NCBI GenBank assembly: GCA_002224055.1
Contig: AZLU01000053.1
Span: 130,629 to 194,628, forward strand
DNA length: 64,000 nucleotides
Direction: 5' to 3'
Origin: Pezizomycotina sp. ARF18
Taxonomy: Eukaryota > Ascomycota
Shown: piece after piece, positions 1-64,000 of the stretch
Position numbering within the stretch: the first letter of the stretch is position 1
Layout of the letters: each line of letters starts with the position of its first letter
Program-made: the position numbers and the translations under genes
The notes under the pieces: generated by a model
What the model saw: the letters and a program-made list of their open reading frames with translations, nothing else
Database searches by the model: none
What the model was told of the DNA's origin: nothing

Positions 1-1
1 C

Positions 2-493
2 ACCATCTACAACTTCGGAGAGCTCCTCCTCCACCCCATCCTCGATTCGCTCCGCGAAACCCAGCACTCCTGGCTGCGCGAGATGCTGTTCGCCTACAAC
101 GCCGGCGACCTAGCCAAATACCACGGCCTGTCCGGTCACCTCGGTAAGGAACCGCTGCTTGCCGACCAGACTAGTTTCCTCCACGAGAAGATCTGCCTGA
201 GCGCTCTGACCGAGTGCGTCTTCAAGCGTGCGCCGAACGACAGGGCGCTCACGTTTGCGTCCATCCAGTCGGAAACGGGTGTGCTTCCCGATCAGGTTGA
301 GCATCTGATCATGAAGGCGCTGAGCTTGGGTCTTATCCGCGGGTCGATAGATCAGGTCGCGCAGGTTGCGAGGATATCGTGGGTGCAACCGAAGGTTCTA
401 AACATGCAGCAGATAGAAAACATGAAGCAGAGGTTGATGGAATGGGACGCTAGCGTCAGCAACCTCAGCACCTGGATTGAGGGGAAGATGTAA
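2..493 (+). CDS. RPN9: 26S proteasome regulatory subunit Rpn9 (PSMD13), C-terminal part
   Basis: This is the last 163 residues of a PCI-domain proteasome lid subunit; the 5' end lies outside the window. The frame is open from base 2 and reads TIYNFGELLLHPIL and then an Rpn9-type winged-helix tail (SIQSETGVLPDQVEHLIMKA, then ISWVQPKVL). It ends in a helix, QQIENMKQRLMEWD, and the stop at 491-493. In the family, Rpn9 is a structural lid subunit of the 19S particle that helps hold Rpn11 and Rpn10 in place, in nucleus and cytosol. No intron or frame slip is seen in this piece, unlike most other genes here. It is convergent with the J-protein gene that follows. Identity rests on motif recognition; another PCI lid subunit is less likely. 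Confidence 0.85.
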   Translation, partial: TIYNFGELLLHPILDSLRETQHSWLREMLFAYNAGDLAKYHGLSGHLGKEPLLADQTSFLHEKICLSALTECVFKRAPNDRALTFASIQSETGVLPDQVEHLIMKALSLGLIRGSIDQVAQVARISWVQPKVLNMQQIENMKQRLMEWDASVSNLSTWIEGKM

Positions 494-909
494 GTAAGGG
501 GGAAGGGATATCTTTGAGCACGTTCTTAGCTATAAAAGCACTGTTACTATACAGCATTAGATATTAGGTATCATTAAGGCAAAAAGCGAGCGCACTAAGG
601 CAATTCAATGCATTGCACTTTGGTCTTTGGGTAGACATTCCTAAATATTGCGGTGATTTTATATGCAGTGATCACCTTGAGCTACAACATCTTCGTAACT
701 GCATATTACAAAAACATATGACAACCAGAAGAAAAAGGATATGCTCAAACAACAAACCCAAGTTCTCCAGCCAATAGAATAATATTTTCATAGATTGAAC
801 CAAGTTAATCGTTTCTGGAAAACCAAGTTAGCAGCTTTAGAAGTTGACTGCCTGCAAGTTTAGTAAATGTAGAAGAGCTATCTTCAAGTAGCGAGCGGAT
901 TTGGTCTTG
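494..909. other. Intergenic, no gene seen
   Basis: This is the spacer between the convergent 3' ends of RPN9 and the J-protein gene. It is AT-rich with several ATA/TATA patches and has no conserved reading frame. Confidence 0.6.
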
Positions 910-1940
910 TCATGGCCGTTTCTGGATGCCATCGCTCATGCAAACTTCAGCTTCGGGCAATATCCTCTGTAGTTTTTCTTCCCTTACTTCTTCTGGAGTG
1001 ACTCCCATGCTCTGCGGGTTCCGAACCCGCAAGAAATTTTGGACCCGCTCTTCCCTCGTCGCCATTTCCATCTGCTCCCTCCGCAACATGTTAAGCTCGC
1101 GGCTAATCTCCCCGTTCGTCCGGTCCCGTTGCTCCTCCAGCCTCATCTTCTGCGACTCAATCCTCAAAAGCTGTATCACCGACCCAAACGCTCCGAAGCT
1201 CAGAACGAGCATAAAGAAGAAAGCCCTATCGTCGATGATCGTCTCCCGACGCTTTCCCGACGCCTGCTGGTGTTCTCCCCGCTCCCGCGCGGCTTCTTCT
1301 TCCCGCCGCTCGTACCACTTTTCCCAATCCTCCCACGTCGCGTTCGCGAACGGCGTATCGTGCCCGTACATCCGCCCCTCAGCCCTCCAACCACGCGTGT
1401 TACCATTGGTCGCTTCCTTCTGGCCGATGACCCCCTCGACTCCGGCCCACCCGGCGCCGAAGTGGTCGTAGGCGCTCTTCTTCTTAGGATCGCTGAGGAT
1501 CTCGTGGGCGGCGACCACGAGCCTGAAACGCTCGACCGTCTCCTCGCGCGAAAGCCCCGAACGGCCGGTGCCTTCCTTCGGATTGCGGTGGTGATGGTGA
1601 TGATGAAGACGATTCAAGTGGTGGTGATGGTGGTTATGGTGGCACCCGTCCGGGTGGTAGAGCTTCGCGAGGCGGTAGAAGGTCTGCTTCGCTTCAGCAG
1701 TGTACGCGGCCCGACGCTGGAGGTTAAATATAGTGTTACGGCGTGACTTTCATCGGCGGCGTCGGCCAGATCGGATCTCCCGGAGCATTGCTGTCCGCCG
1801 CGGGAGTAGCGTGGCCGCGTAGGCATTTTTATACGGGAGATTAGCGGTTGGTTTCCGTGGAGCCTCTTCCGGGCGCGAGGTGCTGCGGCAATTGTGAGGA
1901 AGGTTAAGGCGAGCGGGCTGCCGCAGCGGTAGAAGTACAT
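910..1940 (-). CDS. J-domain membrane protein, Jid1-like, with a His-rich insert
   Basis: On the minus strand, an ATG at 1940 begins an Arg-rich, mitochondrial-presequence-like N-terminus (ending HGNQPLISRIK). A region WPTPP..VTP follows, then the J-domain helix II and HPD motif (KQTFYRLAKLYHPDG, about 1685-1640). The J domain resumes at RFRLVVAAHEILSDPKKKSAYDHFG (split here by a short insert). Between HPD and helix III lies an unusual run of about 13 histidines in two blocks. Next come WEDWEKWYERR, one hydrophobic segment (FFFMLVLSFGAFGSVIQLL, about 1195-1250) and a charged coiled tail. Such proteins stimulate Hsp70 ATPase; the yeast relative Jid1 sits in the mitochondrial inner membrane, so that location is inferred. 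The frame slips near 1826-1830 (an A run) and 1738 (a codon of the NP-YN stretch). It is divergent from RIB7. Confidence 0.7.
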
Positions 1941-3189
1941 GGCCGGTAGCCTAATTGCATTTCGACCGCCGATGCGCTTGGACCATCTTTTCCTAGCTTT
2001 GTTTTTCTATTAATGGTTTTCTCTTCCTGATGATGATTGCAGATAGTCAACGATATAAGGTTCAGATCAAGACGGTGGATAGCGTAACCATCGCACGAAG
2101 GTCCACAACTAGGATGCGTAGATGGTGAAACTCGAGAGGAACGATATCAAAATTATATCGACTGCGTCATTCAATGTTGATATACAGAACTAGAAATAGT
2201 CATAATTTATTCCCTTGAATGCTTATTACATGTAGATTTATAAGAGACTTTGGTACTAGATGATGAGCTTCTCAGGCGTGATGCAGCTGAAGAGTGGAAT
2301 GTTAAAGAAAAGGAGCTATCGTAGTAAGTAGATAAGAATTCACCATCGATCAGGATAGACGGATTGAAAACGGTCGAAAAAGGTCAAAAAGGGATCCAAT
2401 AATTCATTACGATTACTTATCACGCACGCATTGCCAGGTTAGTGAGCGATTTTTTATTTTACAATTTGGAGCTGCTGTTTACGTCAATTCGGGGGGGGCA
2501 TGTTCCACGGCGAGGGATTTGGTGGCGGGGGTGGCTGCCCACGCTGCCGCGAGAGGGGCGCCTGATTGGTGCCTCACTGCCGAGGGACGAAGGGAGTTTA
2601 GTGGGCCTTAGTGGGGGCTGTTGGTGGGGTCCAATGTAGCTCGGGGCAGACCGGGACGCGACGCCGAGAAAAAATAGCAATTCTAGTCCCCGCAAATTTA
2701 AAAAGACACAACGCCCAAAGAACACAGCTCCCTTTTTATTCCAATGGGCGAGAGAGACGGTTACGAGAGGGTTACTCCAAATACGTAACTTCTTGACCAA
2801 GCGTTCGTTTATCATTGTTAGCTGACAGGTGCAGCCCTGTTTTTTTCCTTTTCTCTTATTTTCCTCTTTTTGCTTCCCTTCGCTCTCCTTGCTAATAAGA
2901 AATTGTCAGAACACCATTGGAGTAACCAGCCAGCCTCGTCCACTCCTTCAAATGGCACTCACAGCTAATTCAGCTGAACCAATTTCCACCCTAACCTCCA
3001 TCCACTTCTTATACATATATATATAGACATAACTCTTAAAAATTCGATCTTGATTCACTCACGACCCTAACCGTTCATTCATTCGTTATCTCTCCTTCTC
3101 GCAGCTCGCCAGTACCCTCGAGAGGGCCAAAACAGTCTTCAAAGAATCACTCTGCTTGTTTCAATTAACACGAAGAATACTCACGCGCA
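1941..3189. promoter_or_regulatory. Divergent intergenic region upstream of RIB7, with a G-rich patch
   Basis: This is the spacer between the J-protein gene (leftward) and RIB7 (rightward). Most is AT-rich without coding signs. At about 2489-2660 there is a sharply G-rich patch with G8, GTGGCGGGGGTGG, GGGGGC and GTTGGTGGGG runs and nearby CCAAT/ATTGG pentamers (2560-2575, 2629-2634, 2741-2746). A TATA stretch lies at 3011-3026. Promoter function is inferred from position only. Confidence 0.35.
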
Positions 3190-4078
3190 ATGTCAATAGA
3201 GTTCCTAGATCCGATATCACCCCACGATCTGCAATTCCTGAAACCCTACCTGCCAGAGGCTACTATTGGTTCGAATGGACATCCACCGTCAGCGGATTAT
3301 AACCCGAACCGGGAGGCCTGCCTTTCGTCACCTTGACTTATGCTACTCCCTCGACTCCCACGTCTCGCTCGTCCCTGGCGTGCGGACCGTCTTATCGGGC
3401 CCGCTGTCAAAGAGGATGACGCACACACTCCGATCGTGCCACCACGGCATCCTCGTGGGAGCTGGAACGGCCGTTGCCGATGACCCGGCCTCAATTGCCG
3501 GATAGATATTACGCGCCTGAGTCGAACGCAGCTGAGCCTCGCCCGATCATCATCGACCCTCGCGGCCGCTGGCTGTCAAAGCTCCACGAGGACACCAGGG
3601 TGCTCAGGACGGCCAGAGACGGCATGGGTCTGGGACCGTGGGTGTACCTTTCGTCGAACACGGAAGGTGACTGGACGGACGCAGAGAGGCTGCTGGAGGA
3701 GCACGGTGGGAGCTCATCAGGATGCGTCCGACAGAGACCTTGGAGGCGGACCTCAGGAGAGCGGAGGCAGGTGCGAGCACTTCAAGTTCAGCTGGCTACA
3801 CATTTTCAGGGACCTCTACGCTTCGGATTGCAGAGCGTCATGGTCGAGGGAGGAGCAACGGTGATCAACGGCCTGTTGAAAGGGGAGGATTCCAAGTTCG
3901 TCAATTCGGTGATTGTTACCATCGCACCTGTGTACTTGGGGAAAGGTGGCCTGCAGGTTTCCCCAGAGAACAGAACGACTGATGAGGGAAAGGCGACTGC
4001 TGCGGTAGCTTTCCGGATGTCAAATGGACCCAATTGGGAGACGACGTCATTTTCACCGGAAGGATACGAAATCGCTAG
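3190..4078 (+). CDS. RIB7: 2,5-diamino-6-ribosylamino-pyrimidinone 5'-phosphate reductase (HTP reductase)
   Basis: Rib7 is the NADPH-dependent reductase of fungal riboflavin synthesis, acting in the cytosol just after GTP cyclohydrolase II. The protein starts MSIEFLDPISPHDLQFL at 3190. Family blocks appear in order: GLPFVTLTYA, SLDSHVSLVPGVRTVLSGP, MTHTLRSCHHGILVGAGTAV, ADDP (3478 region), PIIIDPRGRW (3543), MRPTETLEADL (3722), then the strongly conserved LQSVMVEGGATVINGLL (3826). It ends IAPVYLGKGG and VKWTQLGDDVIFTGRIRNR with a stop at 4076-4078. Length, near 295 residues, is somewhat longer than the roughly 245 of yeast Rib7. These blocks lie in different frames, with slips near 3310, 3346, about 3490, 3720, 3810 and about 4015. 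No intron is needed to explain the order. Confidence 0.8.
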
Positions 4079-4766
4079 CTGAGAAGAGCTATGGTGTTAA
4101 AAAAGAAAAGAAACGTGGAAATTTTATCATAAAGTCAATTAAGACGAAAATACAACGCGAGAAATTAAACTTTTAAAGAAAGTCGTACGAGCATGGTTCT
4201 AAGCAGCGCGACGTTCCTCTATTCAAGCATCTTTTATGAAAGAGAGACTCCAGCGTAGCAATTTGCCGAGTAGGTCATTGTCAGAAAAAGCTATTGAATA
4301 TAAGCCCGCAAGGCAGGAATTTTGTTACTTGCTATCGCTGGGTAAGCTAACACCCGTATGTATAGAGCTCGGAGTTTATTTCTCGAGGAAATTGTAGATG
4401 TAAATGAATGCAAGTGACTCGTTCAAAATGAGAATATACAATATGATACAATTCGTATTATCGCGAGAATTTGTAGCAAGCCGTGGCTAGATTCGACGAA
4501 GAAGGAAGCAGTTGGGTATATTTGCAGTAGTGGTTGCTTTTGTTTATTTGTTTACATTTTATCTTTTGTCGAATAATTTCTAGCCGCGGCGCCAAGGACG
4601 ACGGGGTAGCAACAACAAGAAAGTAGCTAGTAGCTTAAAAAAACACACCCAAATTTCCAGCACCGAAGCTCGAATTCGACGCGAATTTTCCGACAGAGAT
4701 TAACAATACTATCAGGAGTAGGTACGTGTAGAAAGCGAAAGTAACGTCTTGAATTTTCTCGATATA
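4079..4766. promoter_or_regulatory. Intergenic between RIB7 and SMC4
   Basis: This is an AT-rich spacer in tandem orientation, without recognisable coding sequence. It presumably holds the SMC4 promoter; I see no diagnostic element. Confidence 0.35.
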
Positions 4767-7700
4767 ATGAGCACGCCAGGCCGACCTAGACGGACGCGGA
4801 GGACCAAGGTGATGATAGCGACGAAGACGATGCTGTCGAAGAACCGACGACTCCAGCTCCTAGAAGACGCCGGGCCGTAGAGACGACCGTCGAAGGCGAG
4901 CACAGCAGCAGCAGCAGCTCCGAGAACTTCACGTCGGACAACCAGGAAACAGCAGGTAGAGGAACCAGACGAGGAGAACAAGCCGAAGCTGAGGAGGAGC
5001 TTGTTAAGGTGAAGGACGAGCCAGTTGATGAGCCCGTGGGACTTCCTAAGATGACCATAGTAGGCAAACAGCGGCGCCCGACGACGCCCCCCGAAGTGAA
5101 CATGGAGGACGTAGCCGATGCACCCGCGACGCCGGCCGTACAGCAGCAGCGGGAAGCTTTGACACCAACTCCGAAGCAAGCCAAAACCCCGTCGGTTAAT
5201 GGTCAAGGACGAACACCTTCCGCAGAACCCGAAAAGACAGTACCCAAGGAGCAGACGCCTCTGTCACCAGTTAGAAACAGGCAGCTACTGACGCCGGCCG
5301 AAGAAACGAAGAGCGCCGAACCCCAACCGCGCATCGTCATTACACATCTCGTCCTCATGAACTTCAAATCATACGCGGGGAGGCAGGAAGTGGGGCCGTT
5401 TCATTCGGTATGTGGGTCTTGCATTTCATCTATAATCAAAGATACCTAGGTAATATAGCTAACCGAAATTCTACTTTAGTCCTTCAGCTCAGTGGTCGGT
5501 CCCAACGGTTCCGGAAAATCCAACGTTATCGATTCCCTCCTCTTCGTCTTCGGTTTCAGAGCTAGCAAAATGCGGCAAGGGAAGCTTTCGGCTCTTATTC
5601 ACAACTCCGCTGGCTTTCCAAATTTAGAATTCTGCGAAGTCGAGGTGCACTTTCGAGAGGTCATTGATCTAGTAGGTACCTTCTTCAGCGTCACGCATTT
5701 ACACTTCCCATTCTTCTGGCTCATTTACTGACCAAAACTCGGAAACTTGTAGCCTGGAGGAACAGAGATCATTCCGAACTCCGAATTCATGATTTCCAGA
5801 AGGGCATTCAGGAATAATTCTAGCAAATACTACATTAACGGCCGCACGAGCGACTACACTACTGTGACAACTCTTCTAAAGGCGCGTGGCGTCGATCTTG
5901 ATCATAAGCGTTTTCTGATCTTGCAGGGCGAGGTCGAGAGTATTGCACAGATGAAGCCAAAAGCTCAAACGGAACACGAGGATGGTCTCTTAGAATACCT
6001 TGAGGATCTCATTGGTACCTCTAATTACAAAAGCCGATTGAAGAGTCTGCTGCAGAAGTTGAAGCGCTTAACGAAGTGTGCACGGAGAAGAATAACAGGG
6101 TGCAAATTGTTGAGAAAGAACGCAACAACCTAGAGAGTAAAAAGAACATGGCGGTGTCGTACATCCAGAATGAGAACGAGCTCGCCATGAAGCAGGCGAC
6201 ATTATACCAGATATTCGTTGCGGAATGCGAACAAAATTTAGAAATTACTGCAGACTCCATCAACCAGCTGACGACTCAGATTAACGCCGAGTTCGAGAGA
6301 AGAGAAGGAAGCGATAGCGAGATCAAGAAGCTTGAAAAAAGGTACAAGCAAGGTTCGAAGGAGTATGAGAAATTCGAACAAATGACGCAAGCTATCCTTA
6401 AGGAGAGCGCAAAGTACGAAAAGGACAGTGTCAAATTCCAAGAGAAGGAGAAATTCTTGACGGGCAAGCAGAAGAAGCTGGAGAAAACTCTTAACTCGAG
6501 CAAGCTCGGTGCTTCGGAGGCGCTGAATCTCATTTCTCGGTTCAGCGATGATGTCGAGAGGCACAATGAGAAGCTCGCAAAGCTAGAAGTTCAGCTCAAG
6601 ACGGAGGAGGACGAACTTGCACGAATTCGAGATGAACTCAAAGACAAGACTCAAGGGTTATCCGACGAAATTGCGGAGAAGCAGAAGCTTCTGGAGCCTT
6701 GGACGAAAGATCAACGAGAAGCAATCCGCAATTGCTGTGACAAGGAGTGAACTCGATATTCTACACGAGAAGAGCAACGCTGGCCAGCGTGCGATGGACG
6801 AAATCCAGGCAAAGATTGCTAACATCCAAAAAAATCACGAGGCTAAAGAAGCTGAGCTGGAGGCTACACAGGAAAAGCAAGCAAATATTGCTCAGGAAGG
6901 CAAAACCATCCAGGTGCAGATAGCAAAATTAGCCAGTAAGGAACCAGAGTTTACGGCCACTGTCTCCGCGGCTCGCCAGCGCGCGGATGAGGCCAAGGCT
7001 TCTCTTTCGGCGACTCAGAACCAAGGCAACGTTCTGAATGGCCTTATGAGGCTCAGGGACTCTGGCAGAATTGATGGCTTTCACGGCCGCCTTGGAAACT
7101 TGGGGACCATCGACGCAAAATACGACATTGCCATTTCCACAGCATGTCCTGCTCTAAACAATATCGTCGTTGATACCGTCGAAGTCGGTCAGAAGTGCAT
7201 TGACTACCTCAGGAAGAACAATCTCGGACGAGCCAAATTCATTCTTCTAGACAGGCTTGGCAGACGAGACATAAGCCAAATTCAAACGCCTGAAAATGTG
7301 CCTCGTCTCTACGACCTTGTCAAGCCGAAAGATGCTATATTTGCCCGGCATTCTACAGTGTGCTTCAGGATACACTTGTCGCAAATGACTGACGCAGGCT
7401 AATCGGATTGCGTACGGCGCGAAGCGCTGGCGTGTCGTTACCCTTGATGGCCAGTTGATCGACAAGTCGGGTACAATGTCTGGTGGTGGAGGCAGACCCT
7501 CCAGCGGTGGTATGTCGAGCAAGCTCGTAGCGCAGACCACGAAGGAAGCTGTAGCGAAGCTGGAGGCAGATCGTGATGCCCAAGAGCAGAAATTCCGTGA
7601 GTTCCAGAAGCAACAGCGAGACCTTGAAGATTCTCTCAAGGATCTCATGGACCAATCGCCCAAGCTTGACATGAGAATGTCAAAAATCCAGCTTGAGATC

Positions 7701-9856
7701 GAATCCATGGAGAAGAATCTACAGGATTCCATGAGACGAATGAAAGAACTCGAGTAAGTGTTGACATTAAAACAGTGTACTCTGAGAACATGTTTTCTAA
7801 CTAACACGATATTTTCGTCATACAGGGCTCAGAATCGGCCATCATCATCCGAAGGTAATCAAGCAGCCGTCTTGGAGAAAAAGATTAGAGGTCTTGAGAA
7901 GGACATCGCTGGTTTGGAGAAGGAGAAGAGTGGTGTCGAGGGCAAATCAAGGCGCTTCAGGACCGTATCATGGAGATTGGAGGTATCAAACTTCGGAGTC
8001 AAAAGGCAACAGTCGATATGACCAAGGAGAAGATGAGCACGATCAACGACGAAATAACATCCGCAGAAGCTTCGAAGGCAAAGGCCGAGAAAACAAAACA
8101 AAAGTCGGAAAAGGCGGAACGCGACGCAACAAAGGAGCTCGAAGGCATCGAGAGGGACTTAGAGAAGCTGAACCAGGAAATCGAAAAGCACAAATCCTCA
8201 GCCGATGCCGCCATAAAGAAGGCTGAAGAAGCTCAATCTGTTTGTCTTCCTAACGATCTCGGATTCCTCCTTTGTGATGTACTTACTAATATCATCTACA
8301 GACCCTCGATGATAAAAAGGATGAAATAGCAGCTTTGAAACAGGAGTTGGATGAGAAGACGGAAGAGTTGAATCAGTTCAGAGCCGCCGAGGTATGTTTA
8401 TTATTAATTAACATTTAGATCTTTAAGTTATCCGAAAATGCTAACAACGTTCCTAGATTGAAATCAAAAACACCCTAGAGGAGCATCAGAAAGTCTACGC
8501 CGAGAATGAAAAGAGGCTGAAATACTGGCAGGAAAAGATGTCAAAGCTGACGCTGCAAAGCTTGAGGTACTTGATTCCCTGTGTTACCTGGTTTGTTACT
8601 AAAGTCACTAATACCTATCAACCGAATTTAGCGACCTTGGCGAAGAAGACGGCGAGGGCCATGTTCTGCCAGTGTTCAGCAAAGACGAGCTGGCAGACAT
8701 GGATAAAGATGAACTCAAGGGAGAGATTGCTGCACTTGAAGGTTGATTGCCGGAAAGCACCCTTCTCACACTATGGAGAAGAAGCTAACCATTACTCGCA
8801 GAGAAAAATCAAAACATCAATGTAGACCTTGCAGTGCTGCAGGAATATCGTAGAAGAGTGGAAGAACACACTGCTCGTAGCAAAGATCTGGAGGAGTCCG
8901 TAACGCCCGTGATTCTGCAAAGAAGCGTTGTGATGATCTCCGGAAGCGACGGCTCGATGAATTCATGGAAGGCTTTAGCATAATTTCGCTCAGGTTAAAG
9001 GAGATGTATCAGGTAACGATTTTTCCGGCTTTTGTTCCATAAAATTGCTTGGTGTTGAGCTGTTTTGCTAAGTTGGTCTTTTAGATGATTACTATGGGAG
9101 GAAATGCGGAGCTTGAACTAGTAGACAGTTTGGATCCGTTTTCCGAAGGTATTCTATTCAGCGTCATGCCGCCAAAGAAGAGTTGGAAGAATATTTCGAA
9201 CTTGTCGGGCGGTGAAAAGGTACATTATACACGTTTACGTTGTTGTTGTTGCTGCCGAAAATATATCAAGAACTAACCTAGTCACCGTAGACGCTGAGTT
9301 CACTTGCCCTTGTTTTCGCCCTCCACCACTACAAACCGACTCCACTTTACGTCATGGACGAAATCGACGCTGCCTTAGACTTCAGAAATGTAAGTCCTGA
9401 TGTTTAGAGTATTGCGTAGATCGGTTATTAGTATTGGATCAAGTTGGCTGACTTCCCATAGGTGTCCATCGTGGCCTCATATATCAAGGAGAGGACCAAG
9501 AACGCCCAGTTTATTGTTATTTCGCTGAGAAACAATATGGTAAGCCCTAAGTAATTTATCGGACGTTTCCAGTCACATTCCCTGCTAACGGCTCTCATAA
9601 ATCAGTTCGAGCTTGCTGCTCGCTTGGTCGGCGTATACAAAGTCAGCCAGATGGTAAGCAGAAACGCACCTCCATTCCCGTTCTCTTCCCCCACCCCTTC
9701 TACTCGTAAAACATCCAAGCCACCCCCATACCGTGGAACCGGTTAGGCTTCCCTTGCAGCAAGCATCCCAGAACGTCGGCTAACCTGGAAACCCAATCTA
9801 CACGTCAGACCAAGAGCATTACAATCGAAAATCAGGATTTCTTGGTCAAGGCATAG
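4767..9856 (+). CDS. SMC4: Structural maintenance of chromosomes protein 4 (condensin ATPase)
   Basis: Smc4 pairs with Smc2 in condensin and compacts mitotic chromosomes. The start [12 protein letters not shown] at 4767 leads an acidic/Ser-rich tail, then [20 protein letters not shown]. Walker A is [11 protein letters not shown] (about 5491-5523). Coiled coil follows from about 6080, the hinge at about 7070-7260 ([12 protein letters not shown]), the second coil to about 9000, the ABC signature NLSGGEK (about 9199-9219) and Walker [16 protein letters not shown] (9346-9390). The end is [15 protein letters not shown] with its stop at 9854-9856. At least ten introns are visible, for example 5410-5480 and 9654-9808. 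Frame slips occur near 4800, 6036, 6705, 7344 and 7388, each returning at once to Smc4 sequence. Assignment to SMC4 rather than SMC1-3 rests on the N-terminal extension and the flanking motifs. Confidence 0.92.
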
Positions 9857-10674: not shown

Positions 10675-11888
10675 ATGGAGCAGGATGACGATCTAACGTG
10701 AGTACTACCTAATAGACTAAAAGAAAAAGATACAGTTATCAAATAAACGAGTGGGATCCGAGAAATCTATTGTTATTAGAGCTATAGCTAAACTAACTTA
10801 TTCACTCTTCTTCACAGGCTTTCGGCATCTACCCTGTCAGCGTTACAGGAGTTCATGAATGAAAAAGATGCCCGTTTGAAGCGCTTCGAGGAGTTGCAGT
10901 CCGCTGCCGAAGATGACCGGCAGAAGCGCGCCGAGGCGCTCTCTATGGACGCATTCGAAGCCGACTGGAACCAGTCGCAGTTCTGGTACGACGACGCGAC
11001 GGCAGAAATGTTGGCGGAGGAGATATCTAGCGGTGCCTCGCCGGATTCTACGATCGCTTCATCTCGAGCCCCAGCGTCTTCGTGAAGCTAAAATCTATGA
11101 TAGTAAGGTGGACTTGGAAGGTCCCTTTGGCCCATGGTGAAGCTTTGCAGGATTTTTGCTGCTTGAAGCTAACTTTTTTTTTTTTCAAGAAAGAGGGCCG
11201 GGCACCAAACTTTCAATTGAAATTACTTGAATATGATACCAGGTTCCAGTTGTTCGAAGAGTTCGTTCCGTACGATTATAATTTTCCATTAAAGTATGTT
11301 TGAGCATTCAAGTGATATTGCGATATCTAAAGATAACATGCCCCGGATTTCCGCACGAAAAGCACCACATTTCAGTTTGATACAATCACATTGAGAGTAA
11401 TACGAAAATTAACATGAAAAAAAAAAAAATTTTTTTTTCTTTCTACAAGGCTTCCAACAGAATTGAAGGGTCACTTTGATCGCGTATTAGTTGATCCACC
11501 ATTTTTGAGCGACGAGTGTCAAACGAAAGGTAAGAATCAGAGAGTTCGTTGCACTAAAGTCTCCACGATCTCCGGTTTAACTTTCTCAAATATTAACAAT
11601 CCTGGGACCTTTTTTTTTTAGCCGCTCTCACGGTTCGGTGGTTGCTAAAGGCATGGGATGCTTCATCATCACAAAGCGGCAAGTCCGGGTCATTGTTTGC
11701 ACTGGCGAAAGGATGAAGGAGCTAGTGGAGCGACTTTTACAAAGGTGTTGGGGTCGGGTGCACAGCTTTGATATCAAGCACGCCCAAGGTCTCAGCAATG
11801 AATTCGTTGCTATTCCTCATTCGAGAGCGAGCGGATCAAGTGGTGGAGAATCCAAAGGCTCATAGGAATAGTAACCAAAATAATGTAA
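10675..11888 (+). CDS. EFM5: eEF1A lysine methyltransferase Efm5 (N6AMT2 family)
   Basis: Efm5 is an S-adenosylmethionine-dependent methyltransferase that modifies a lysine of translation elongation factor 1A. Exon 1 is MEQDDDLT (10675-10697). After an intron at 10698-10817 comes LSASTLSALQEFMNEKDARL, then the family hallmark DWNQSQFWYDDATAEMLAEE and the SAM-site region SSPSVFVKL. Next are LLEYDTRFQLF and YDYNFPLK. The DPPF-type catalytic motif FDRVLVDPPFLSDECQTK spans an exon at about 11453-11530. After another intron come RVIVCTGERMKELVERLL and LSNEFRCYSSFESE. The order matches yeast and human orthologues. Slips lie near 11058 and 11805 and within 11650-11690. The last one decides the stop: 11863-11865 as read, or 11886-11888 in the frame that restores NEFRCY. 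It is tandem with SMC4. Confidence 0.85.
11417..11438. repeat. A13T9 palindromic tract inside an EFM5 intron
   Basis: Identical in composition and length to the tract at 10560-10581. It lies about 20 bp before the acceptor of the intron that ends near 11450, so it replaces a normal polypyrimidine tract. Confidence 0.75.
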
Positions 11889-17259: not shown

Positions 17260-17303
<44 letters not shown>

Positions 17304-17574: not shown

Positions 17575-17587
17575 ACTCAGGTGCGAA

Positions 17588-32051: not shown

Positions 32052-32767
32052 AGAGTCAAGCTGAACCTGGAGCTACCCTCAAACGTGAAGAAGTACTGGG
32101 AGAGACTACGCACTGGCCGATGGATTTAGTTGGGTTAGTTGCAGCATGGTTTTTCTTTTCCCCCCTTTTTTTGGACTTTATTGATCATGCGGTCGTAGAG
32201 TAATTTATTATAATGCAGCTAACAGTACCATAACATAGGATCTACTCGAGCCTCTTCGGAACCCAACCACAAAGCCTCTTTGCGTTTACGGAAGGGCATG
32301 TATAAGCTAGCTTACGACAGGGCCGGCGGCTTGTACGACAGGTCCGTTTCCAGGGTTATTTAACAACCGCACTGCAGATCTTATGGCTGCGGAGGCATGA
32401 ACCGCGAGCGCTGGCAGCGCAAACGCGAAGGGAGGTGCAAAGAGGGAGCGGGCCGAAAGCAATCCTTCAGCCAGTAAACCTACCAAGAGTATCAGAATGA
32501 TCAAAGATAAAAGGACCAAAGAATTACAAAATTCCTTCGATTCACTTTTGGAATCGGGAGGTAAATAGAACGTTGCCAAATACAGCATACACAGTAATCT
32601 TATGAAAGCATGGCTTAAAGCTGTAGGATTGACTGCTGGAAACTTTTTTTTTTTTTTTTTCATTTGGTATCGCTTTCTGCGCCAAATATTTTTTGAAACA
32701 TAATTAAAGGCATCTGTACAAGTTTGAAAGCAACATAAGGATGCATGCTACAAAGACAAAACTGGTA
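32052..32767. other. Spacer before the Tc1/mariner element
   Basis: Holds a T20 tract (about 32644-32660) and no recognised gene. The frames here (for example around 32310-32660 on the minus strand) have a hydrophobic stretch but no family resemblance. Confidence 0.4.
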
Positions 32768-32848
32768 CAGGTGGTGACCAACGTATAGTGCACAAACTTC
32801 AACTCCAAGTTGGGATATCGTCAGAACCCCCAAAATTCTCAAAATTAT
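32768..32848 (+). repeat. Left terminal inverted repeat of the mariner element
   Basis: Eighty-one bases, ending CTCAAAATTAT; reverse complement of 34151-34230 apart from one extra C. Confidence 0.95.
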
Positions 32849-33040
32849 AGCAAATGACAGATATCAATACAAATAATTAAATATAATGTTTCAAAAATGT
32901 GATACGGCCCCTTTGTTGTTGATATCACGATTTGAAAACAACACATAAAAATAAAATATATTAAAATTCGTGATATCGATGGCTTCAGCCTCCAACATAA
33001 AAGCTCGACTCAGCTTCTCAGATACTCTCTCCTAATCGAT

Positions 33041-34072
33041 ATGGCAGGCCAATATCAAAGACAACATTATACTCCTCGCAAGAGAGCCTCTATACAAGCT
33101 TTATCGCGTGCTGGTCACCCGGTTCCTTCATTTCACTTCAAGAACGCACCCCCATTAGATCTATCTATAAATTCTTAAAGAACCAACCAACCCTCAATCA
33201 GGTCGCACCGGAGCAATACGATTCTTAACTCAAGCAAGCCGGACCCGACTCCGCGCTATCGCTCTTCAGCATCGCTTCGCTACTCTTAACGAGATTACTC
33301 GTCTTAATAATCGAGATCCCACCCAACCCATGCGTCTAAATCAACAATTCGACGGGAACTTCGTAAAATAGGAATCTCTCAACGTCGAGCCCGTCATAGC
33401 GTCTTTACCAAGCAAAATCACCGCGATAAAAGAATCGAATACGCTCGAAATAATAAAAATACAGACTTTAATAACGGAATTTATATTAACGAAGCTTCAT
33501 TTTGCTCTGCTTCGAGCAATAAAGTGCGCCGTGTCTGGCGTTATCCGGGACGGCCTACGAGCCAGAAAATATATTCGCTACTTTTAGAAGTAGCCGCTTT
33601 AGTTTAATGGTATGGGGTGGGATCGCGATTAATAATAAGAGTGAGTTAGTTATCTTTCCCGAAGGTAAAATTACGAGCGCCGTCTACGAGCAGGAAATTT
33701 TAAGGGGCGGCTTAAAGAGGTTTATTGCAAGATTGAAGCGTCGCCACCCTAATCGAAATTAGTTTGTCGTCGAGGATAATGCGGCGGTTCATGGTAAGAA
33801 AAGCTAGCAAAATTGAGGGCTGATCTTGGTGTAAAATGGCAGAACCACCCCGCCTGCTCACCCGATTAAACTGTATAGAGAACGTCTGGGCCTTGATAAA
33901 GGAACGTCTTAATGCATTGCCGCGCAAGGCGACTAGTAAAGAGGAGCTCAGGAGCCAGGTGCAGCAGCTATGGGATGAGCTTAAAGCTAGAGACTTTAAT
34001 CCTTTTATTAGGTCGATGCAAAGCCGGTTGACAGCTGTTATTTATCAACGTGGATTACCCTACAAATATTAA
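33041..34072 (+). pseudogene. Tc1-type DDE transposase, decayed
   Basis: The start MAGQYQRQHYTPRKRASIQA looks like the basic helix-turn-helix entry of a Tc1 transposase. Middle blocks are RRELRKIGISQRRARHSVFT, then INEASFCSASSNKVRRVWRY (first catalytic acid region, normally DEASF) with PGRPTSQKIYS, and FSLMVWGGIAINNKSELVIF. The second acid is in FVVEDNAAVHG. The final block is LNCIENVWALIKERLNALPR, whose Glu lies about 33-34 residues after the EDN Asp, giving a DD34E spacing. The reading ends RGLPYKY with a stop at 34070-34072. The total span fits about 340 residues, normal for the family. At least one in-frame stop (TAG where Trp is expected, near 33762) and several frame slips make it inactive as read. 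The TGG-to-TAG change would fit RIP, but one site is not proof. Confidence 0.85.
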
Positions 34073-50964: not shown

Positions 50965-52394
50965 ATGGCTGAATCTCGAATCGTCGTTATCGGGTGAGTT
51001 CCTTATATCATCCAATTAGGGGATAGAAAAAAGCGATAGAGTTAAGACAATATGGATGGAAAGGAAATTTGAATGGCATGTCTACAATCTATGCGAAATA
51101 CTAATATATCCCAGCGCTGGCGTCGCCGGGTTGACGACTGCTCTACTGCTAGCCGCAAAGGTTACTCGATAACTGTGGTAGCAAAGCATCATCCCGGAGA
51201 TTACGACATAGAATACGCTTCCCCCTGGGCAGGCGCTAATTACCTTCCGTAAGTCAGTCAATTTCTCTCGGCAGGAAGAGCTTAAGATAAGGAATGTTCG
51301 TTGCTAAAACAGCAGCTTTTTGAAGATTCTCGGAGCCGGGTTCTGCGGAGGCAGGTTGGGAGAAACACATTCCCAGACTTGTGGTGGCTAGCAAACGAAG
51401 TTCCCGAAGCTGGAATACACGTCCAAGATACGAAAATATACAACCGCAACAGGACGCTGATGCTCTCTCTCCGATTGGGTGAAGGACCTGTGCTCCACAG
51501 ATCCCTGGTGGAAGGACGTCGTTCCCGAATTCGTGTCTAGAGAAGGACGAGCTTCCGCCTGACGTAGACTCCGGAACGTGCTTCAAAAAGCGTGTGCATC
51601 AACACCGCTCTTTACCTGCCGTACTGATTGGCCAGTGCAGGAAGCACGGCGCGGTTATAAAGAGGGCAAGCCTCAAGCACATCAAAAGGCGGCAAAGCTG
51701 CACCACTCCGGCAAGGACGCCGACTGGTGGTCAATTGCACGGGCCTGTTGGCGTCCAAGTTAGGCGGTTAATGGCAAGAAGCTTATCCCAGCGAGGGCCA
51801 GATTATTCGTACGGAACGAGGCGCCCGCGATGATGACGATATCCGGTACCGATGACGACGACGCCGACTCCATTACATGATGATGAGGGCTGCTGGTAAG
51901 CCTCCATACCTTTGCCCTTTCTTCTCCTACTTCGTAACCTAAACAAATGTCTGACTTTCTTGTTTTTTTACAGGCGGCGGAACAATCTTGGGTGGTTGCT
52001 ACCAGAAGGGCAACTACTCCTCTGATATTGACCACAACCTCGCGCGAGGATACTGCGGCGCCTGTGCCCAGTACTGCCCGGAGATGACTAATGGGAAAGG
52101 TGTAGACGGTTTTGATATCATCAGGCATGGAGTTGGATTACGGCCGTGCGCGAAGGTGGACCTCGTGTAGAGACGGAGACCATAGACGGTATCAAAGTAG
52201 TCCATAACTACGGTGCCGGCAGCTTTGGATGTAAGATTTGTCATTTGTATATCTTTTCTCTAGGTTTATTAGGAATTCTCTTGCTAACATCTTCACTTCG
52301 CGTGCCCGTTTTTCCAGATCAAACATCCTACGGAATGTCAAACGAAACTGTGGAGCTAGTAGAGAAAGCTTTGAAAGCAAAAGCAAAGCTATAA
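50965..52394 (+). CDS. DAO1: D-amino-acid oxidase, peroxisomal
   Basis: This FAD enzyme oxidises D-amino acids to keto acids, ammonia and peroxide. Exon 1 is MAESRIVVIG; across an intron (50993-51114) the Rossmann fold GAGVAGLTTALLLAAKG continues as YSITVVAKHHPGDYDIEYAS and PWAGANYLP, the DAO signature. Later blocks are RNTFPDLWWLANEVPEAGIH, then SVCINTALYLPYLIGQCRKH, NCTGLLASKLGGVNGK and IPARGQIILVRNEAP. After the intron at about 51897-51974 come GGTILGGCYQKGNYSSDIDH and NGKGVDGFDIIRHGVGL. The C-terminal DAO motif is EGGPRVETETIDGIKVVHNY then GAGSFG and SYGMSNETVELVEKAL. The protein ends AKL, a type-1 peroxisomal targeting signal; stop at 52392-52394. Frame slips are near 51160 and in the middle exon. 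Confidence 0.92.
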
Positions 52395-52847
52395 GTGGTT
52401 TTTTTTGTACACGATACCTATCTGCGAGACGTTTTACATATATGGTTTCCTTACGTGGCTAAGCTATATCTTGTACATGCCACTGTTAGTTGGGCTAGTA
52501 AACATAATAATTGAAGTCAAACTTATAGTGATAACCACCATGATAGATATCAAGGGATTACTTGATTTCGATTTCGTCCGGGGTCGATTACAGTCAATAA
52601 AGACAATATAGAACTTTGTATTAAGATATTACATGAACATAACAGTCTAATAATATAGACTCTGACAAGCATTAGCAATGGAAATTTCGAAATCGGTTTT
52701 TATCATACACGAATTAAGATCCGCTCCATGTCATAAACGTACGTATTCATCGCCAGTTCATACGTTAATATGGTATTCGACCAGACCTCTAGGGTTTATA
52801 GCCGTAAAATCCTCCTAAATTCTCAAAAAATAATTAAACGAAAGAAA
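52395..52847. other. Spacer between D-amino-acid oxidase and the tRNA-like gene
   Basis: AT-rich; nothing recognised. Confidence 0.5.
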
Positions 52848-52965
52848 GTGCTCTTGGTATAGTTGGTAACATGCGGCATTGCTTTCGAAATCAGCGGGGG
52901 TCAACGTCCAACTAACCAGGGTCTAGTGGTAGTGTTGCGATTCGGGTTCGAATCCCGGAGGGCAC
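52848..52965 (+). tRNA. tRNA-like gene, isotype unassigned, probably intron-containing or aberrant
   Basis: The ends form a perfect seven-pair acceptor stem: GTGCTCT (52848-52854) with AGGGCAC (52959-52965), one G-U pair. A clean T arm follows the pattern CGGGTTCGAATCCCG. A D-arm-like TGGTATAGTTGGTAA lies at 52854-52868, with GTAT/ATGC stem pairing. The total, 118 nt, needs about 45 extra bases to be explained as an intron. The centre contains a second D-arm-like string, GGGTCTAGTGGTAG, and the loop TTTCGAA, which would allow TCG or CGA anticodons, but I cannot draw a convincing anticodon stem with a U at position 33. A T-rich tract follows at 52979-52990, as expected for Pol III termination. 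Confidence 0.45.
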
Positions 52966-53507
52966 AGAAATCAATTAGTTATTTGTTTTTATTTTCTTTT
53001 GCTGGCTGTTTTTTTTTTTTTTTTTTTTTTTGGTACGATATAATTTCATGCGCGATGCTACGAATAAATACGACAGTTTGTATTGAAAATTCGAATTTGA
53101 AATCGTATCATACGAATTTACTGGTATATCAAGCCAATCTAATCTAATAAAGGATACCTAGATGCAAATCCTAGTGGGATAAATATAATAATAGTACCTG
53201 CGAGCTATTAATAATCAACTTCGCACAAGAGAGATTGCGCGGAAATATCTCGTTGACATTACCTCTTGAAGAAGACAGACCCTTACTATAATTTGTTTAA
53301 ATACACCCCGACGAGTACCTAGATTCTAAAGAGCACGAGTGCCACGTAGTTTCAAAGAAATGCGCGGGATAATATCTTCATATAATAGTGATACTAGGCA
53401 ATTTATATTGTATCTAAGTTACCAGTATCGATATGATAGAATAATCGTTGATCTAAGCAAATATGCTCAATTGTATATTTTCAACATAGCGCTTGAGCAA
53501 AATCCAA
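52966..53507. other. Spacer between the tRNA-like gene and the M20 gene
   Basis: Contains a T tract (53010-53031); otherwise AT-rich with no gene recognised. Confidence 0.5.
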
Positions 53508-55364
53508 TCACTCTAACTCGTTAAGGGGAATATGAAAGACGTCAGCTGCCATTAAAGCTCCAATTACCTGCTCCTTTACAATATCAGGAATATCAAGCAT
53601 AGGTGCCAATGACGGCGGCGGTGACGCTAACAGCCTGTCAATCTGCTCCTGAGTTGGGATGTCGACTTTGTCGTAAGCTTGAACGACTGTGGCCGCCTTG
53701 GCGGCTACTTGAGCTTTGAATACCTTCTGGATCGCGTCATAATCAGCACGCCCAGTCAGCACGTCTAGACCAACAGCGCGCAAGGCCTTTGCCACAGTCG
53801 AGAGCTTTTTTGAAAGCATCCTTGGTTCCGGCAGCCTCAGCAAAAGGGGCTGATGGTTTACGGCCTCATTGTCGAGGAAAAAAGACGGTTGGATTGCTGG
53901 AACGACGTAAGAGACGTTTCCTAATAAATCTCAAAGGGCGTATTAGTTAAGTATTGCTGCTTTTGACTGCGATTTTTGGAGTCGTATAAGACTTTGATCC
54001 GTATTGCATTCCTCATAAAGTTTCTTACCTTGGTCCGATGCAGCACCGGGATTGTTGGTGATTTCGGGATACTTGTATACGGTTTTACTCCAAACTCATT
54101 CATGCGATCAGTGAAGTGATGCAAAGAACGTCGTTAGATATCATATCCCAGTACGCTTCATGAGGCCTTAGTATAAGAACAAAATTTAGCAAATCAAGGA
54201 CTATCTTCTGTGTACAGGTCATGTATATGAATACTTGGCTTCTGCCGTACGAAGAGAAAGGTTGGGTTTCAATTACTCTTCCATGATAACCGTACAATTA
54301 GCAGCATCCGCTCCAGCCTGGAAGCAACTTTTGACTTTCCTCTTCAGATCATCCAGGCTATCCTTCCGTTCGGCCCTTATGCTATATACCGCTTGCGTAT
54401 GCTCCGGTATGATATTAGCCGCCGTTCCTCCCAGCTTCACGTAGCCGCTCACCGCTGCGTTGGCTCCAGCTGTTGTCGCATCGTAGATATACCGACGTAT
54501 GCGTTGACCAGCGCATCGAGGGCGTTCCTCCCTTTCCACGGCGCCATACCGGCGTGCGACTGAAGTCCTTGAAAATCGGCAGTCAGCCCCTGCGATGCGA
54601 GGGTCCTCGTAAACGCAAGGGCCTTTAGGTCCCTATCTGAAGCTCTGGGACCAGGATGCGCCATCAGGCACGCCGAAGCACCGACGTATGCTCCCTGTTT
54701 CAGCAGGGTTATTTTGCCGCCGCCGTTTTCTTCCGCGGGTGTTCCGAGGAGTTTAACGGTACCCCTGATGTTAGGAGGGGCATCTTTCAAGCTTTCCCAG
54801 CAGGCTATAAACCCTGCGATGGAAGCCGAAGCGATGAGATTATGCCCGCAGGCGTGTGCGGGTTTGGACTTTGGTTGATCTGGTCCTTCTACCTTAACCG
54901 TAATCGGGAGGGCGTCGTATTCGGCGTTAAACACTACGGTCCGAGGAGGACCACCCGAAAAAGAGTCGTGATCTTGCAGGGTAGTTTTTGTGGCTTCAAC
55001 GAGGAAGCTAGTTACCATGTTACCGATCTTATACGCTTGTCGCGTAACCTTATAATCTGAACCTAAGCTTTCGAAGTAGTCGCAGATAGCGTCATGCGCC
55101 GTGGTTTCTTTCCAGGCAAGCTCTGGGTTGTTCCAAATCTGTATCGGTGGTTTTTCTCGCAAAATATGGAAAATCATTCAGAAGGCATAGTCTTGAGGAA
55201 ACTTGATACTCACAATGCAGGATCGTAGAATTAAGATATATACTGACAAGGAGTGTTACCTTGTCGTTGATCTTCTTGATCGCGTCATAATGTGACTGAA
55301 TAGATGATTCAATTTTCTGACGGACTTCGTCGTCTAAAGCCGGGATCTTGTTATCGGATAGCAT
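53508..55364 (-). CDS. M20-family metallopeptidase/amidohydrolase (PM20D2/ACY1L2-like)
   Basis: ATG at 55364 gives MLSDNKIPALDDEVRQKIES and, across an intron (about 55260-55142), IWNNPELAWKETTAHDAICD. Metal and catalytic motifs of the family are present: NAEYDALP (Asp), HACGHN (54860 region) and TPAEENGGGK (general base Glu and metal-binding Glu). Then AHPGPRASDRDLKALAF, GLQSHAGMAPWKGRNALDAL and NAYVGISTMRQQL belong to the dimerisation/lid domain. GGTAANIIPEHTQAVYSIRA and FQAGADAANCTV follow. The final catalytic domain shows SDQGNVSYVVPAIQPSFFLD and KALRAVGLDVLTGR. Members hydrolyse dipeptides or N-acyl amino acids; the substrate is unknown. After GLDVL the frame continues about 90 residues, with roughly 65 (AAKAATVVQAYDKVDIPTQE onward) beyond the usual end. 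Convergent with D-amino-acid oxidase. Several introns and slips. Confidence 0.8.
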
Positions 55365-57202
55365 TGTTGACCTTTGGCCTCCCGTTTGAAGGCAATTGAA
55401 CGAGCATGATGTATAGGAAGTAGTTTTCGAGAAATAAACAAAAGTGAAGGCCTGGCTATTGTAGGTGCAGATATTTATAAGATCTCAAGCTATTTTTCGT
55501 GATTAATGAAGGTTAAGTATATACGTAACACAAGAGTGGAACGGAAACTATAGGGCAAGTAATACAAGAACATCTCGAACATATATGCGGCAGGAAATCG
55601 CTTTACTGAGGCTGAATTAATTAGCGAATGGCGATTGCTATCAACAGCCCACAGAAAACATGGCGTGGTCTAGACTAATCCGAAAAGGTCATCACTGCGA
55701 TCCCGTGCATGTTTGGTCCGGTATTGATAACGCGGTTGATACATGGCTGCGAGAGCTAGCTCGACGTGGGATGACTTGAGGACTGATGTACTTGAAAAGA
55801 GCAATCAATGTGTTCCCTGACTGGCTAGGTAGAGACGGAGACTTGCACATAGACACCGCCGACTGTTTCTTTCATGTACCTGCGGCCCGAAAAGACGATG
55901 GCGGGGAATGAATGGCCAATGAGGATCTCACTGGATTGGGGTGGCCAGCCAATCCTGGTGTTCCGCTCTTTCGCCATCCCAACCCCCCCCCCCCCCCAAA
56001 AAAAAAAAAAAAAAAAAAAGGCTCAGGAAACCCTTCAAGGCAAGTATCGACTTTGGCGATTGTATTTAATGGAAAAGGTTAGAGTATTTGCTCGTGGGGC
56101 TGTGGGCGACATTCTTAGGCGAAGCAGAGGGCCATCTTCACCAGATCACAACCTGCAGAGTCACCTCGCTATCCCGCAACAACAGCAACAAAAACAACAA
56201 GAAGATTGACGGAGAGAAGGACAAAAAGGATAATTATTCGCCAAAGGTAAAATATATAAGAGACGTCCTGCAAAATCCGTGCAGCAAACGCCATTTTTTG
56301 ACAAGGAATTGCAAATTTGCGCCTGCGCAGGCAAAACAACCAGCGTTCCGTCAACACAACTCCAAAATGAGCAAGAAAAAGATAGGCGAATCCTGGCCTT
56401 GCATTGATTGTTGGGGTTACAAGCTATCGCCAATGATTAGCATAAGCTGATGTGTGATCAAAAAATTGAAGTGTCAATACATACTGCAATACCTACCACT
56501 GGACCAATCCGGCAAAATTTCAGTCCTATTCGGATCGGAAAAGGCCTCTATAAACCTTGGCTGTCCATTCCTTGAAATATTTTTGAAAGAGAACAGGATT
56601 TTGGGCCTCATTGCTGAAATATTTTGATTCGGTAATAGTATTTGCGGAGAAGCAGTAAAACTTGTTTTCCGGAAATTTAAGGATCTTTAAAACCTTCAAG
56701 AAAGATACCTCCGGGAGTCTATGTAACGTGAAAGCTAGAGTCAGACCTAGATAAACTATAATCTTGTGTAACGATAGTTCGGGTTAGAATTTTAGAGGAT
56801 GGCTACTTATGCATAAATTTAGAGCTTTTAAAACCGCCTTGTATTCATAAGGCAACCCCGCGCTGACATTGGTTTCTATACAAACCATGCCCGTAGAAGG
56901 CAAGGTCACCCGAAAGTTGGCTGCTTAAGCAAAGTAGTAAACAAAAACAATGAACTTAAACGACCCGAAGCTTACTGACGAGCAAGAGCGGTACGTTCAA
57001 TCAGAGTTTTGCTTGTCCTTAAGACCGGAATCGGTTTGCGGTAGCCTCTTAGTTGATTCGGAAGGTCCCGACTTCTTTCGCGGGATATTTGAAATTATAT
57101 TGTCGATGATAGCGACTCATAAGTAGGACATCGGAACGCTAGATCGGTAGAACAATCGACTAGTATGTATAAATCGCTACTCTTGAGAAAGTTGTGAGGA
57201 AT
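55365..57202. other. Intergenic, no gene recognised; C15A22 tract
   Basis: Contains the compound C15A22 tract at 55983-56019 and short frames rich in Gln/Asn (56160-56220) that I cannot assign. Nothing conserved is seen. Confidence 0.4.
55983..56019. repeat. C15A22 compound homopolymer
   Basis: Fifteen C followed directly by twenty-two A, the only long C tract in the window. Confidence 0.85.
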
Positions 57203-58205: not shown

Positions 58206-58244
<39 letters not shown>

Positions 58245-59146: not shown

Positions 59147-59179
<33 letters not shown>

Positions 59180-61072: not shown

Positions 61073-61111
<39 letters not shown>

Positions 61112-61393: not shown

Positions 61394-62009
61394 TCATGTT
61401 CTCCATGTCCATGGCTTGTACCACCTTTTCGCTGCCTCGATCTCTTCCTTTTCCTTCTATCCTTCTCTAGCCTGAGGCGCTCCTCTTTCTGCTTCTTCTC
61501 GGTCGCTTTTCTCTCCATCAGGTATCTTGCCTGTAGCATGCCTTCTATTTCTTTGCCCCGCCGGAGATGGCACATTTCGAAGCTCACGATGGATCCTCCG
61601 CAGAACGTCGCGACAGCCCAATTCGCAGCGCTTTTTACCGTAGCTACGGTTTATCGCGAAAAATCAATGCGTTAGCCAATTAATTCATCTTTTACTTCGG
61701 TTTCTTTCTTTTCAAAAGTCGAAAACAGTGTTATCGGAACGCACATCTGAGCACCAGCTAACCCCCCCGAACCCGAATCCCGCCGCGATCCCGACCGCAG
61801 CGCCTCCCGGACGCATATCTGCTTGTGCACCTTCGTGAAATTCCTCCAGCTGGATAGTCTTTGCAGCTTCGGTGAACGTAGGGAATGCGCGGGAGGTGTC
61901 GATGTTTTTGCGCCGGGGTATCGTCGAAGTACTTCTTTGGAGGAGCGGTGGCTGAAGGTTCCTTCTGGGCGTCCTCTTGCGGAGGCGCATCTTTTGGAGG
62001 GTCGGACAT
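61394..62009 (-). CDS. COX20: Cytochrome c oxidase assembly protein Cox20
   Basis: Cox20 is a small mitochondrial inner-membrane chaperone for the Cox2 subunit of complex IV. ATG at 62009 gives MSDPPKDAPPQEDAQKEPSA and APPKKYFDDTPA, then AFPTFTEAAKTIQLEEFHEG, and AQADMRPGGAAVGIAAGFGF with GGV, the first membrane hairpin. After an intron (about 61760-61635) come SAANWAVATFCGGSIVSFEM, CHLRRGKEIEGMLQARYLME and RKATEKKQKEERLRLEKDRR, matching the family order 'AANWAVGTF..SFEFCQ..R'. The short aromatic tail KRWYKPW precedes a TGA at 61394-61396 in the frame I prefer; another frame runs on to 61330. Slips lie near 61906 (an A5 run) and near 61440. The start is ATG rather than the in-frame GTG six bases upstream. 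Confidence 0.78.
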
Positions 62010-62439
62010 CGGCACTCCCTTCGCTGCAGATGTGGTGTTTCTATCCGGTGTGGGTTGGTGATTGGAGGGGTTTAAGAATTGTCAGAAGCGGATGGAGGGC
62101 TTTCAGTAGGAAAGGTTTGTGGCGGTGGCTTCGTTTCTTTTTGTGTGGCACGCAATTTTAGGGGAGCGCTTTATGATATCATCAATTGAAGGTTTTCAGA
62201 GCCTCAACTGCGGAGACGCGACAGGGATGGAAAGAGATTCTGCAAAAGTCAAGACGCAATTGAATCCGATGTATATAGAAAAAAGTAAATAAAGAAGGGG
62301 GTATACTACAATCGAGTCTTTTCACGATTCATAATGGGACAAAGATGCTAATGCACAAAAAGAGAAAACATGAACAGTAATACAATGAGTCGATTCTTTC
62401 GTGATTTTCTGGTTATAGATATCTTATGATTCATCTTCG

Positions 62440-62475
<36 letters not shown>

Positions 62476-62498: not shown

Positions 62499-63335
62499 TC
62501 AATCCACGTCGTCCACATCTGATTCCGAATCCGGCTCCGATTCTTCCTTCGCCTTTGCTTTCACCTTCTCCTTCGTTTCTTTATAGTCTTCCTCGTCCTC
62601 TTCTTCCCCTTCGTCCTCATCCTCGGAATCCTCCTCTTCCTCGCTACCCTCGGAGTCGACGATCTTTTTCTTCTTCTTAGGTTCTTCTTTGTGCGAGATG
62701 ACGGTTTTCTTCTCGACCTGATCAGCGTAAGTCGGCCTGGCGACTGTGACGTCCTTAGCGCCCTTCAGTTTTATGGCAACTTCGATCTGCGGCGCGAGTG
62801 CGAGAGGTTATTATATTGCTCCAGCGTCATTGAAATACCCTGTACGAGTTGAAAAGGCGTAGATAAGTATATGAAAGTTCTTTGGCGACAACCATACAGG
62901 AATGTAGAGGTGGGAGATTGTTAACGATACCTTCTTTCCAGGAAGAACCTGGCCGTCCTTCTCGTAGTACTCCCTGATGCTCACCAGGACGTTGCCTTTG
63001 AAATCGGAGACGGTGACCCTACGGAGCCTTCCACCAATCTATTCGCAGAAAATAAAAAAAAGGTTGTTAATCTGGCGCTCCAAGCAGACACTGTTTTCTT
63101 ATGATTCCCCAAAGGTAAAAGAGAGTCGCACCTCCAATACGAATTTCCTTCATTATCAGTCTTTTAGTGCCGTCAACTGCCGTCTTCTCAGTTTTCGGCC
63201 TCTTCGCCTCCGGTTCGTCTTCCCTCGAGAGACCCGGATCGTTGCTTCTGAACTTTTCGTGAGACGACGATCCGTACTTGTTGAACTTTGAGCCGCCTCC
63301 GCCGCCGCCTTTACTGTAGAATGTCGCTTCGGCAT
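62499..63335 (-). CDS. SUB1: Transcriptional coactivator Sub1/PC4
   Basis: Sub1/PC4 binds single-stranded DNA and supports RNA polymerase II initiation. From ATG at 63335 (MPKRHS) a Gly-rich then Ser/Lys/Glu-rich leader follows (YSKGGGGGGSKFNKYGSSSH, EDEPEAKRPKTEKT), ending DNEGNSYW. Intron 1 is 63039-63131. The PC4 fold follows: IGGRLRRVTVSDFKGNVLVS, IREYYEKDGQVLPGKK. Intron 2 is 62840-62930. Then come GISMTLEQYNN and LALAPQIEVAIKLKGAKDV, completing the domain. A tail, KKTVISHKEEPKKKKKIVDS, leads to a long acidic Glu/Asp stretch (about 62630-62560) and the stop at 62499-62501. Such an acidic tail is longer than in human PC4. Slips are near 63325 (start region), about 63147 and 62803. Confidence 0.88.
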
Positions 63336-63603
63336 TTTTTACGAGTACTTTGTGAGTATTGCGACGATATGGTTCAAGTGAAGTACTACTCTTGGTTGAG
63401 AGTTGGTTAAGTGGTGAATCTCGTCAATTGTGAAATCGCTTTTAAAAAGCGAAATAATCCCTTTAAAAAAAACCTTAGCGAGGGCTTTTCTTTTTTAATG
63501 GCCCGTTTAATTATTAGTGCAGGTACTTCTTTTTTAACCTCTAAAATCGCCAATTAGGTGGAACAAAGGGAAGACGCGTCGCGCGTTTTTTGTGCATCAG
63601 CCC

Positions 63604-63643
<40 letters not shown>

Positions 63644-64000
63644 AAAGAGCACAATGTACCTGTCATTGGGATTCGCTCATAGAAAAGGCACTTTCGTCAA
63701 GCTCGGTTGTCGTCTCCCTACAAGGTGCTGCTTCGGTTTTTCTTGCGGAATTCGGAAGAGCCGAAATTGCTTGCAGCTACTATCACGCTACTATACTACT
63801 ACCACCTTTTTTTTTATTTCTTTTTCTTGTGCACTGGCTAATACCAAAAACAGCTTCGTACACACGAGAGCTTCGAACCTTTGCTTTTACAAGAGAGGTT
63901 CAGTTCGCAAATACAGGAAACGCGCCTCATTCCCTCTAAAAACATTACGTCTCTTAAGCTTCAGCAAATCTTGATGAGTTAGAGAAACAAAACCACTTTT
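63336..64000. other. Upstream region of SUB1 to the window edge, with A37 tract
   Basis: Pure A37 at 63605-63641 lies about 270 bp upstream of the SUB1 start. No further gene is recognised up to 64000. Confidence 0.5.
63605..63641. repeat. A37 homopolymer upstream of SUB1
   Basis: Thirty-seven consecutive A, the longest pure tract in the window. It is T37 in the SUB1 sense orientation, the arrangement of a poly(dA:dT) promoter element. Confidence 0.85.

Follow-up and report, generated by a model that had tools for sequence, protein, structure and literature searches.

Single-base frame slips in conserved genes of the Pezizomycotina sp. ARF18 assembly are very probably consensus errors

Genes of the window and their frame changes

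We analyzed a 64,000-nucleotide stretch (the window; G000:C53:130629-194628) of the Pezizomycotina sp. ARF18 assembly, which comprises 46,361,250 bases in 408 contigs. By reference and profile matches, the window carries genes for condensin SMC4, an Rpn9/PSMD13-like protein, a J-domain protein, and proteins with RibD_C and PC4 domains. A sequence-only reading had listed 14 sites in the window at which conserved genes change frame. These genes, and the GT-AG introns, are typical of a eukaryote, most probably a fungus. The slips are present in the sequence, and all five of the sites that were checked against a reference hold.

The aligned SMC4 coding stretch lies on the plus strand at 5756..7754, with frame changes at about 6032, at 6706, and by 7388. 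Its pieces, in successive frames, match residues 256-353, 353-566, 529-777, and 792-918 of the reference chain 6yvd_D in order, and the start of the piece matching 529-777 overlaps the preceding frame. The alignment contains 293 identities in 641 positions and no in-frame stop. It puts two changes that had been reported at about 6036 and 6705 at 6032-6033 and 6706, respectively. For the slips claimed at 7344 and 7388, a net loss of two bases stands, with the reference matched up to residue 777 and again from residue 792, and 14 residues spread over 40 bases. Their separation into two sites is suggested by a short piece in the third frame.

An EFM5-like methyltransferase gene at 10792..11300 (plus strand) changes frame at 11058-11073. 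Here, positions 2-38 and 34-80 of PF10237 match in two frames that overlap at 11058-11073, in agreement with the slip proposed at 11058. Other genes are likewise divided into pieces in differing frames. In the RIB7-like gene (3242..4079, plus strand), identified by a RibD_C match and adjoining frames, RibD_C positions 7-57 fall within 3242-3502 and positions 117-175 within 3420-4079. The J-domain gene (JID1-like; 913..2006, minus strand) was identified by a DnaJ match and adjoining frames, and its open piece at 913-1749 covers the 63-position DnaJ profile from position 37 to 63 only. The SUB1-like gene (62502..63423, minus strand) has its PC4 domain in 62814-63038. The stretches previously called DAO (51020..52167, plus strand) and COX20 (61675..62081, minus strand) are delimited by adjoining frames only. 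None of the three pieces tried at 51020..52167 matched the DAO family and the COX20 pieces tried at 61675..62081 had no Pfam match; one sub-threshold Fer4 match was the only Pfam result for these two stretches. In SUB1, RIB7, JID1, DAO, and COX20, the slips are thus visible as adjoining frames, with Pfam matches limited to single pieces of SUB1, RIB7, and JID1.

The window also contains repeated and non-coding elements. One repeat of about 760 bases occurs at 32765-33525 and at positions 20-766 of locus L020 on contig C55, the two being 79.6% identical. At 52848-52966 (33.8 bits) lies a tRNA-like gene interrupted by some 50 inserted bases, and the segment that holds it together with its downstream flank (52746-53303) has a diverged relative, L048, on contig C21. 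Repeats among the sampled loci were few or strongly diverged and insufficient for counting errors.

Frame slips in unrelated essential genes

To count slips, we wrote a frame- and intron-aware aligner, took solved homologue chains as references, and used one setting of penalties of our own choosing. Four genes on four contigs were aligned: SMC4 (C53), CCT2 (C54), CCT5 (C99), and HSP70 (C70). We take the reference chains to be from yeast for CCT2, bovine for CCT5, and human for HSP70. CCT2 contained six slips (379/487 identities), CCT5 seven (308/428 identities), and HSP70 five in 766 bases (209/252 identities). Altogether, we counted 22 slips in 5,534 coding bases, a length made up of intervals typed by hand from the alignments, which corresponds to 3.98 per kb or about one per 250 bases. 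This total counts the SMC4 sites at about 7346 and at 7388 separately and becomes 21 if they are merged, since the aligner returned one net event there; the 14 reference residues at about 7346-7388 were entered as X and site 7346 was set by hand. By arithmetic from the alignments, the rate for individual genes ranges from about 2 to 6.5 per kb across these unrelated essential genes. At 18 of the 22 slips one base is missing, while one base is extra at two and two bases are missing at the remaining two.

CCT2, CCT5, and HSP70 are 72-83% identical to their homologues, which is still the level of working homologues, and SMC4 is 46% identical. No in-frame stops were present in the 1,808 aligned codons of the four genes.

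We considered whether the slips could be overlooked introns, as these genes have many GT-AG introns (51-178 bases) that account for part of the frame changes. Frame changes of this kind were modeled as introns. At the counted slips, however, the homologue resumes at most one codon away, leaving no space for an intron. The 40 bases of SMC4 that precede 7388 are the sole exception, and there the 14 reference residues were accounted for. Overlooked introns are therefore an extremely unlikely explanation.

A whole-assembly search for the chaperonin family yielded 33 matches in eight loci. Seven of these loci contain one or more junctions at which consecutive matches differ in frame, with too little space between them for an intron. 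On C70, the eighth locus consists of two distant matches in the same frame and could not be judged. Together with the four genes on four contigs, this result upholds the proposal that unrelated essential genes are struck alike. Some pieces were free of slips: neither a CCT3 piece (200 codons) nor a CCT4 piece (168 codons) contained one, and we counted both against a reading as sequence error. As these two had been picked as open pieces, they were excluded from the slip rate.

We also sampled 20 random stretches of 10 kb. Pfam searches with the longest frames gave matches at 4 of the 20 loci, from which HSP70 was used because it was the most conserved. Three of the stretches contained withheld letters; among the frames shown for the other 17 and the window, none was open for more than 406 codons, which we counted in favor of consensus error.

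We asked what sequence surrounds the slips. Most sites had been attributed to the loss of one base in a short homopolymer, which our counts do not bear out: a run of at least three bases lay within 3 bases of 7 of the 22 sites, compared to a background of 20% (P = 0.14). With other widths, P for such runs was 0.09-0.41. For mean run length, P was 0.05 with a 5-base width and 0.11-0.28 with the others, and the first 17 sites alone gave P = 0.03 for mean run length at the 5-base width. Because a deletion shortens the run that it strikes, the homopolymer test is conservative. The nuclear sample contained 144 runs of at least 12 bases, which we counted against sequence error.

No motif common to the slips was evident among the 22 sites, and a classical slippery heptamer lay within 12 bases of only one. 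These data bear on the idea that the slips are real and are either bypassed by programmed ribosomal frameshifting or mended by insertional RNA editing. Conserved residues resume immediately past each slip and the protein is otherwise normal, in line with such a process. Insertional editing is known in slime-mold mitochondria, and in Euplotes ciliates programmed frameshifting is widespread, with a constant sign and motif. As in Euplotes, many of the genes examined here need a change of frame to be read. Unlike in Euplotes, the slips are of mixed sign (18 with one base missing, two with one extra, and two with two missing) and share no evident motif. Moreover, slippery heptamers are near just 1 of 22 sites and several events would be required per gene. 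Frameshifting or editing is thus exceedingly improbable as the explanation. That essential genes of the nuclear genome are truly missing single bases at intervals of a few hundred positions, and are rescued by insertion at the RNA level or by very frequent ribosomal frameshifting, is barely conceivable.

Second copies and the origin of the slips

One way in which many genes could be broken together is that, in a hybrid, a single nucleus or subgenome decays while an intact copy elsewhere supplies the functions. This alternative had been raised in the sequence-only reading, and we find it disfavored. Searches of the assembly for a second copy of SMC4 (window 5800-8800) and of window 53400-56400 returned only the self-match in both cases. 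A 20-kb query gave five short relatives (67-311 bases, 69-89% identity), which is a weak negative, as the query's own place was not among the matches listed. The number of chaperonin loci also speaks against a second genome. Nine members of this family are expected in a eukaryotic genome, and the eight loci found, seven of them broken, do not exceed the number for a single genome.

One of the five short relatives is a partial duplicate of the SUB1 5′ exons, in which window 62991-63315 corresponds to positions 655-965 of locus L046 on contig C7. By our own reading of the frames, the C7 relative stays open where the window copy of SUB1 changes frame, as hybrid decay would have it. However, this relative is only partial, with 82% identity over about 330 bases. 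It suggests that the ancestral SUB1 frame was open at this point and is no demonstration of a second genome.

A decaying copy should also have acquired stops by substitution, and the 1,808 aligned codons hold none. In the sampled coding stretches, 187 of the 4,437 possible substitutions (4.2%) create a stop. By arithmetic, decay with three substitutions per indel would predict about three stops over 22 indels, and genuine decay usually shows more substitutions per indel than that. Considering the copies and the stops together, hybrid decay is very improbable.

A second way of breaking frames without broken genes is a consensus that is a mosaic of two collapsed haplotypes or nuclei, with each haplotype intact and the junctions between them breaking the frames. 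Apparent frameshifts of this type are described, in the parts of the report that we consulted, for a collapsed diploid assembly (PMC8445201). The slips here resemble those frameshifts in that the breaks would lie in the assembly and be absent from the organism. They differ from the allele mixing in that account in that the two stretches tested here gave no hint of a second copy. In such a mosaic, moreover, the haplotypes would have to differ by about 4 coding indels per kb in the most conserved stretches, and both would then be frame-broken. A mosaic consensus is therefore highly improbable.

In all four genes aligned across their breaks, the only damage consists of indels of one or two bases, although a eukaryote would hardly be expected to survive the loss of these genes. 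We therefore favor consensus error. In this model, noisy and probably long reads without sufficient polishing would leave missing bases in the consensus. The slips are very probably residual one-base (rarely two-base) consensus errors, mostly missing bases, that occur at about 4 per kb in the sampled nuclear contigs. The preference for consensus error over pseudogenes that had been expressed from the window alone thus gains support from the size of the indels (one or two bases), the lack of stops in 1,808 codons, and the occurrence of slips on four contigs and in 7 of 8 chaperonin loci. Although we infer both the cause and the long-read origin of the errors, consensus error is the simplest explanation, and the living cell very probably does not carry the sequence as assembled.

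Errors of this type have precedents. Frame-breaking indel errors are described for draft long-read assemblies in the sections that we consulted of three reports (PMC12007338, PMC8812927, PMC9262707), which emphasize homopolymers. As in two of these (PMC12007338, PMC8812927, same sections), many genes here are broken by short indels while the protein sequence is otherwise normal. Two features differ from PMC12007338, as far as the consulted text of that report goes. First, homopolymers are given there as the predominant error context in long-read assemblies, while homopolymers are not significantly enriched at our slips. Second, its abstract puts errors at <0.05% of the genome, and the rate of about 4 per kb found here lies above this value.

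The slips are almost certainly an assembly artifact of an ordinary kind and not a feature of the organism. This has consequences for use of the assembly: its gene models, pseudogene counts, and protein predictions are unreliable, and genes that are broken or missing in it are not to be taken as biology. Other findings in the window that are based on broken frames warrant equal caution.

The mitochondrial contig and structured RNAs

Contig C50 (at least 230,876 bases; L030-L034) carries many tRNA matches on one strand and COX1 exons that are many kilobases apart. Because of the one-strand tRNAs and COX1, we assigned it as the mitochondrial contig, which makes it a very large one. In the 15.9 kb of C50 covered by five loci, the first COX1 exon and the LAGLIDADG-type intron ORF that it runs into form an intact frame of 505 codons. 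The last COX1 exon is open as well. The COX1 family matches on C50 are single-frame by construction and unfit as a count of slips, so that only the 505-codon frame was used. This frame would fit a molecule that was read more deeply and has fewer consensus errors, an agreement that is suggestive only. Some intron ORFs on C50 look broken, which we counted against sequence error; these breaks may be natural. The first COX1 exon and the start of the following intron ORF occur twice on this contig (L031 1333-1986 and L034 1332-1986), with 94.4% identity over 656 aligned positions.

Structured RNAs were examined for indels outside of coding sequence. The cores of U2 (four loci) and U6 (two loci) showed no clear indel, which we counted against sequence error, but their length is too small for this to be telling. 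Two tRNAs examined as a non-coding control were too short or too diverged for indel calls.

One of the U2 loci, L044 (G000:C36:33050-33350), contains a long insertion that starts with GTAAGC and ends with CCCCAG. The insertion ends exactly where the other U2 copies (L042, L043, and L045) continue, and in its ends and position it resembles an intron of spliceosomal type within the snRNA gene. The two U6 loci (L035 and L036) are adjacent on one strand (G000:C4:71422-72350) and have the core in common, with strongly different 5′ and 3′ parts.
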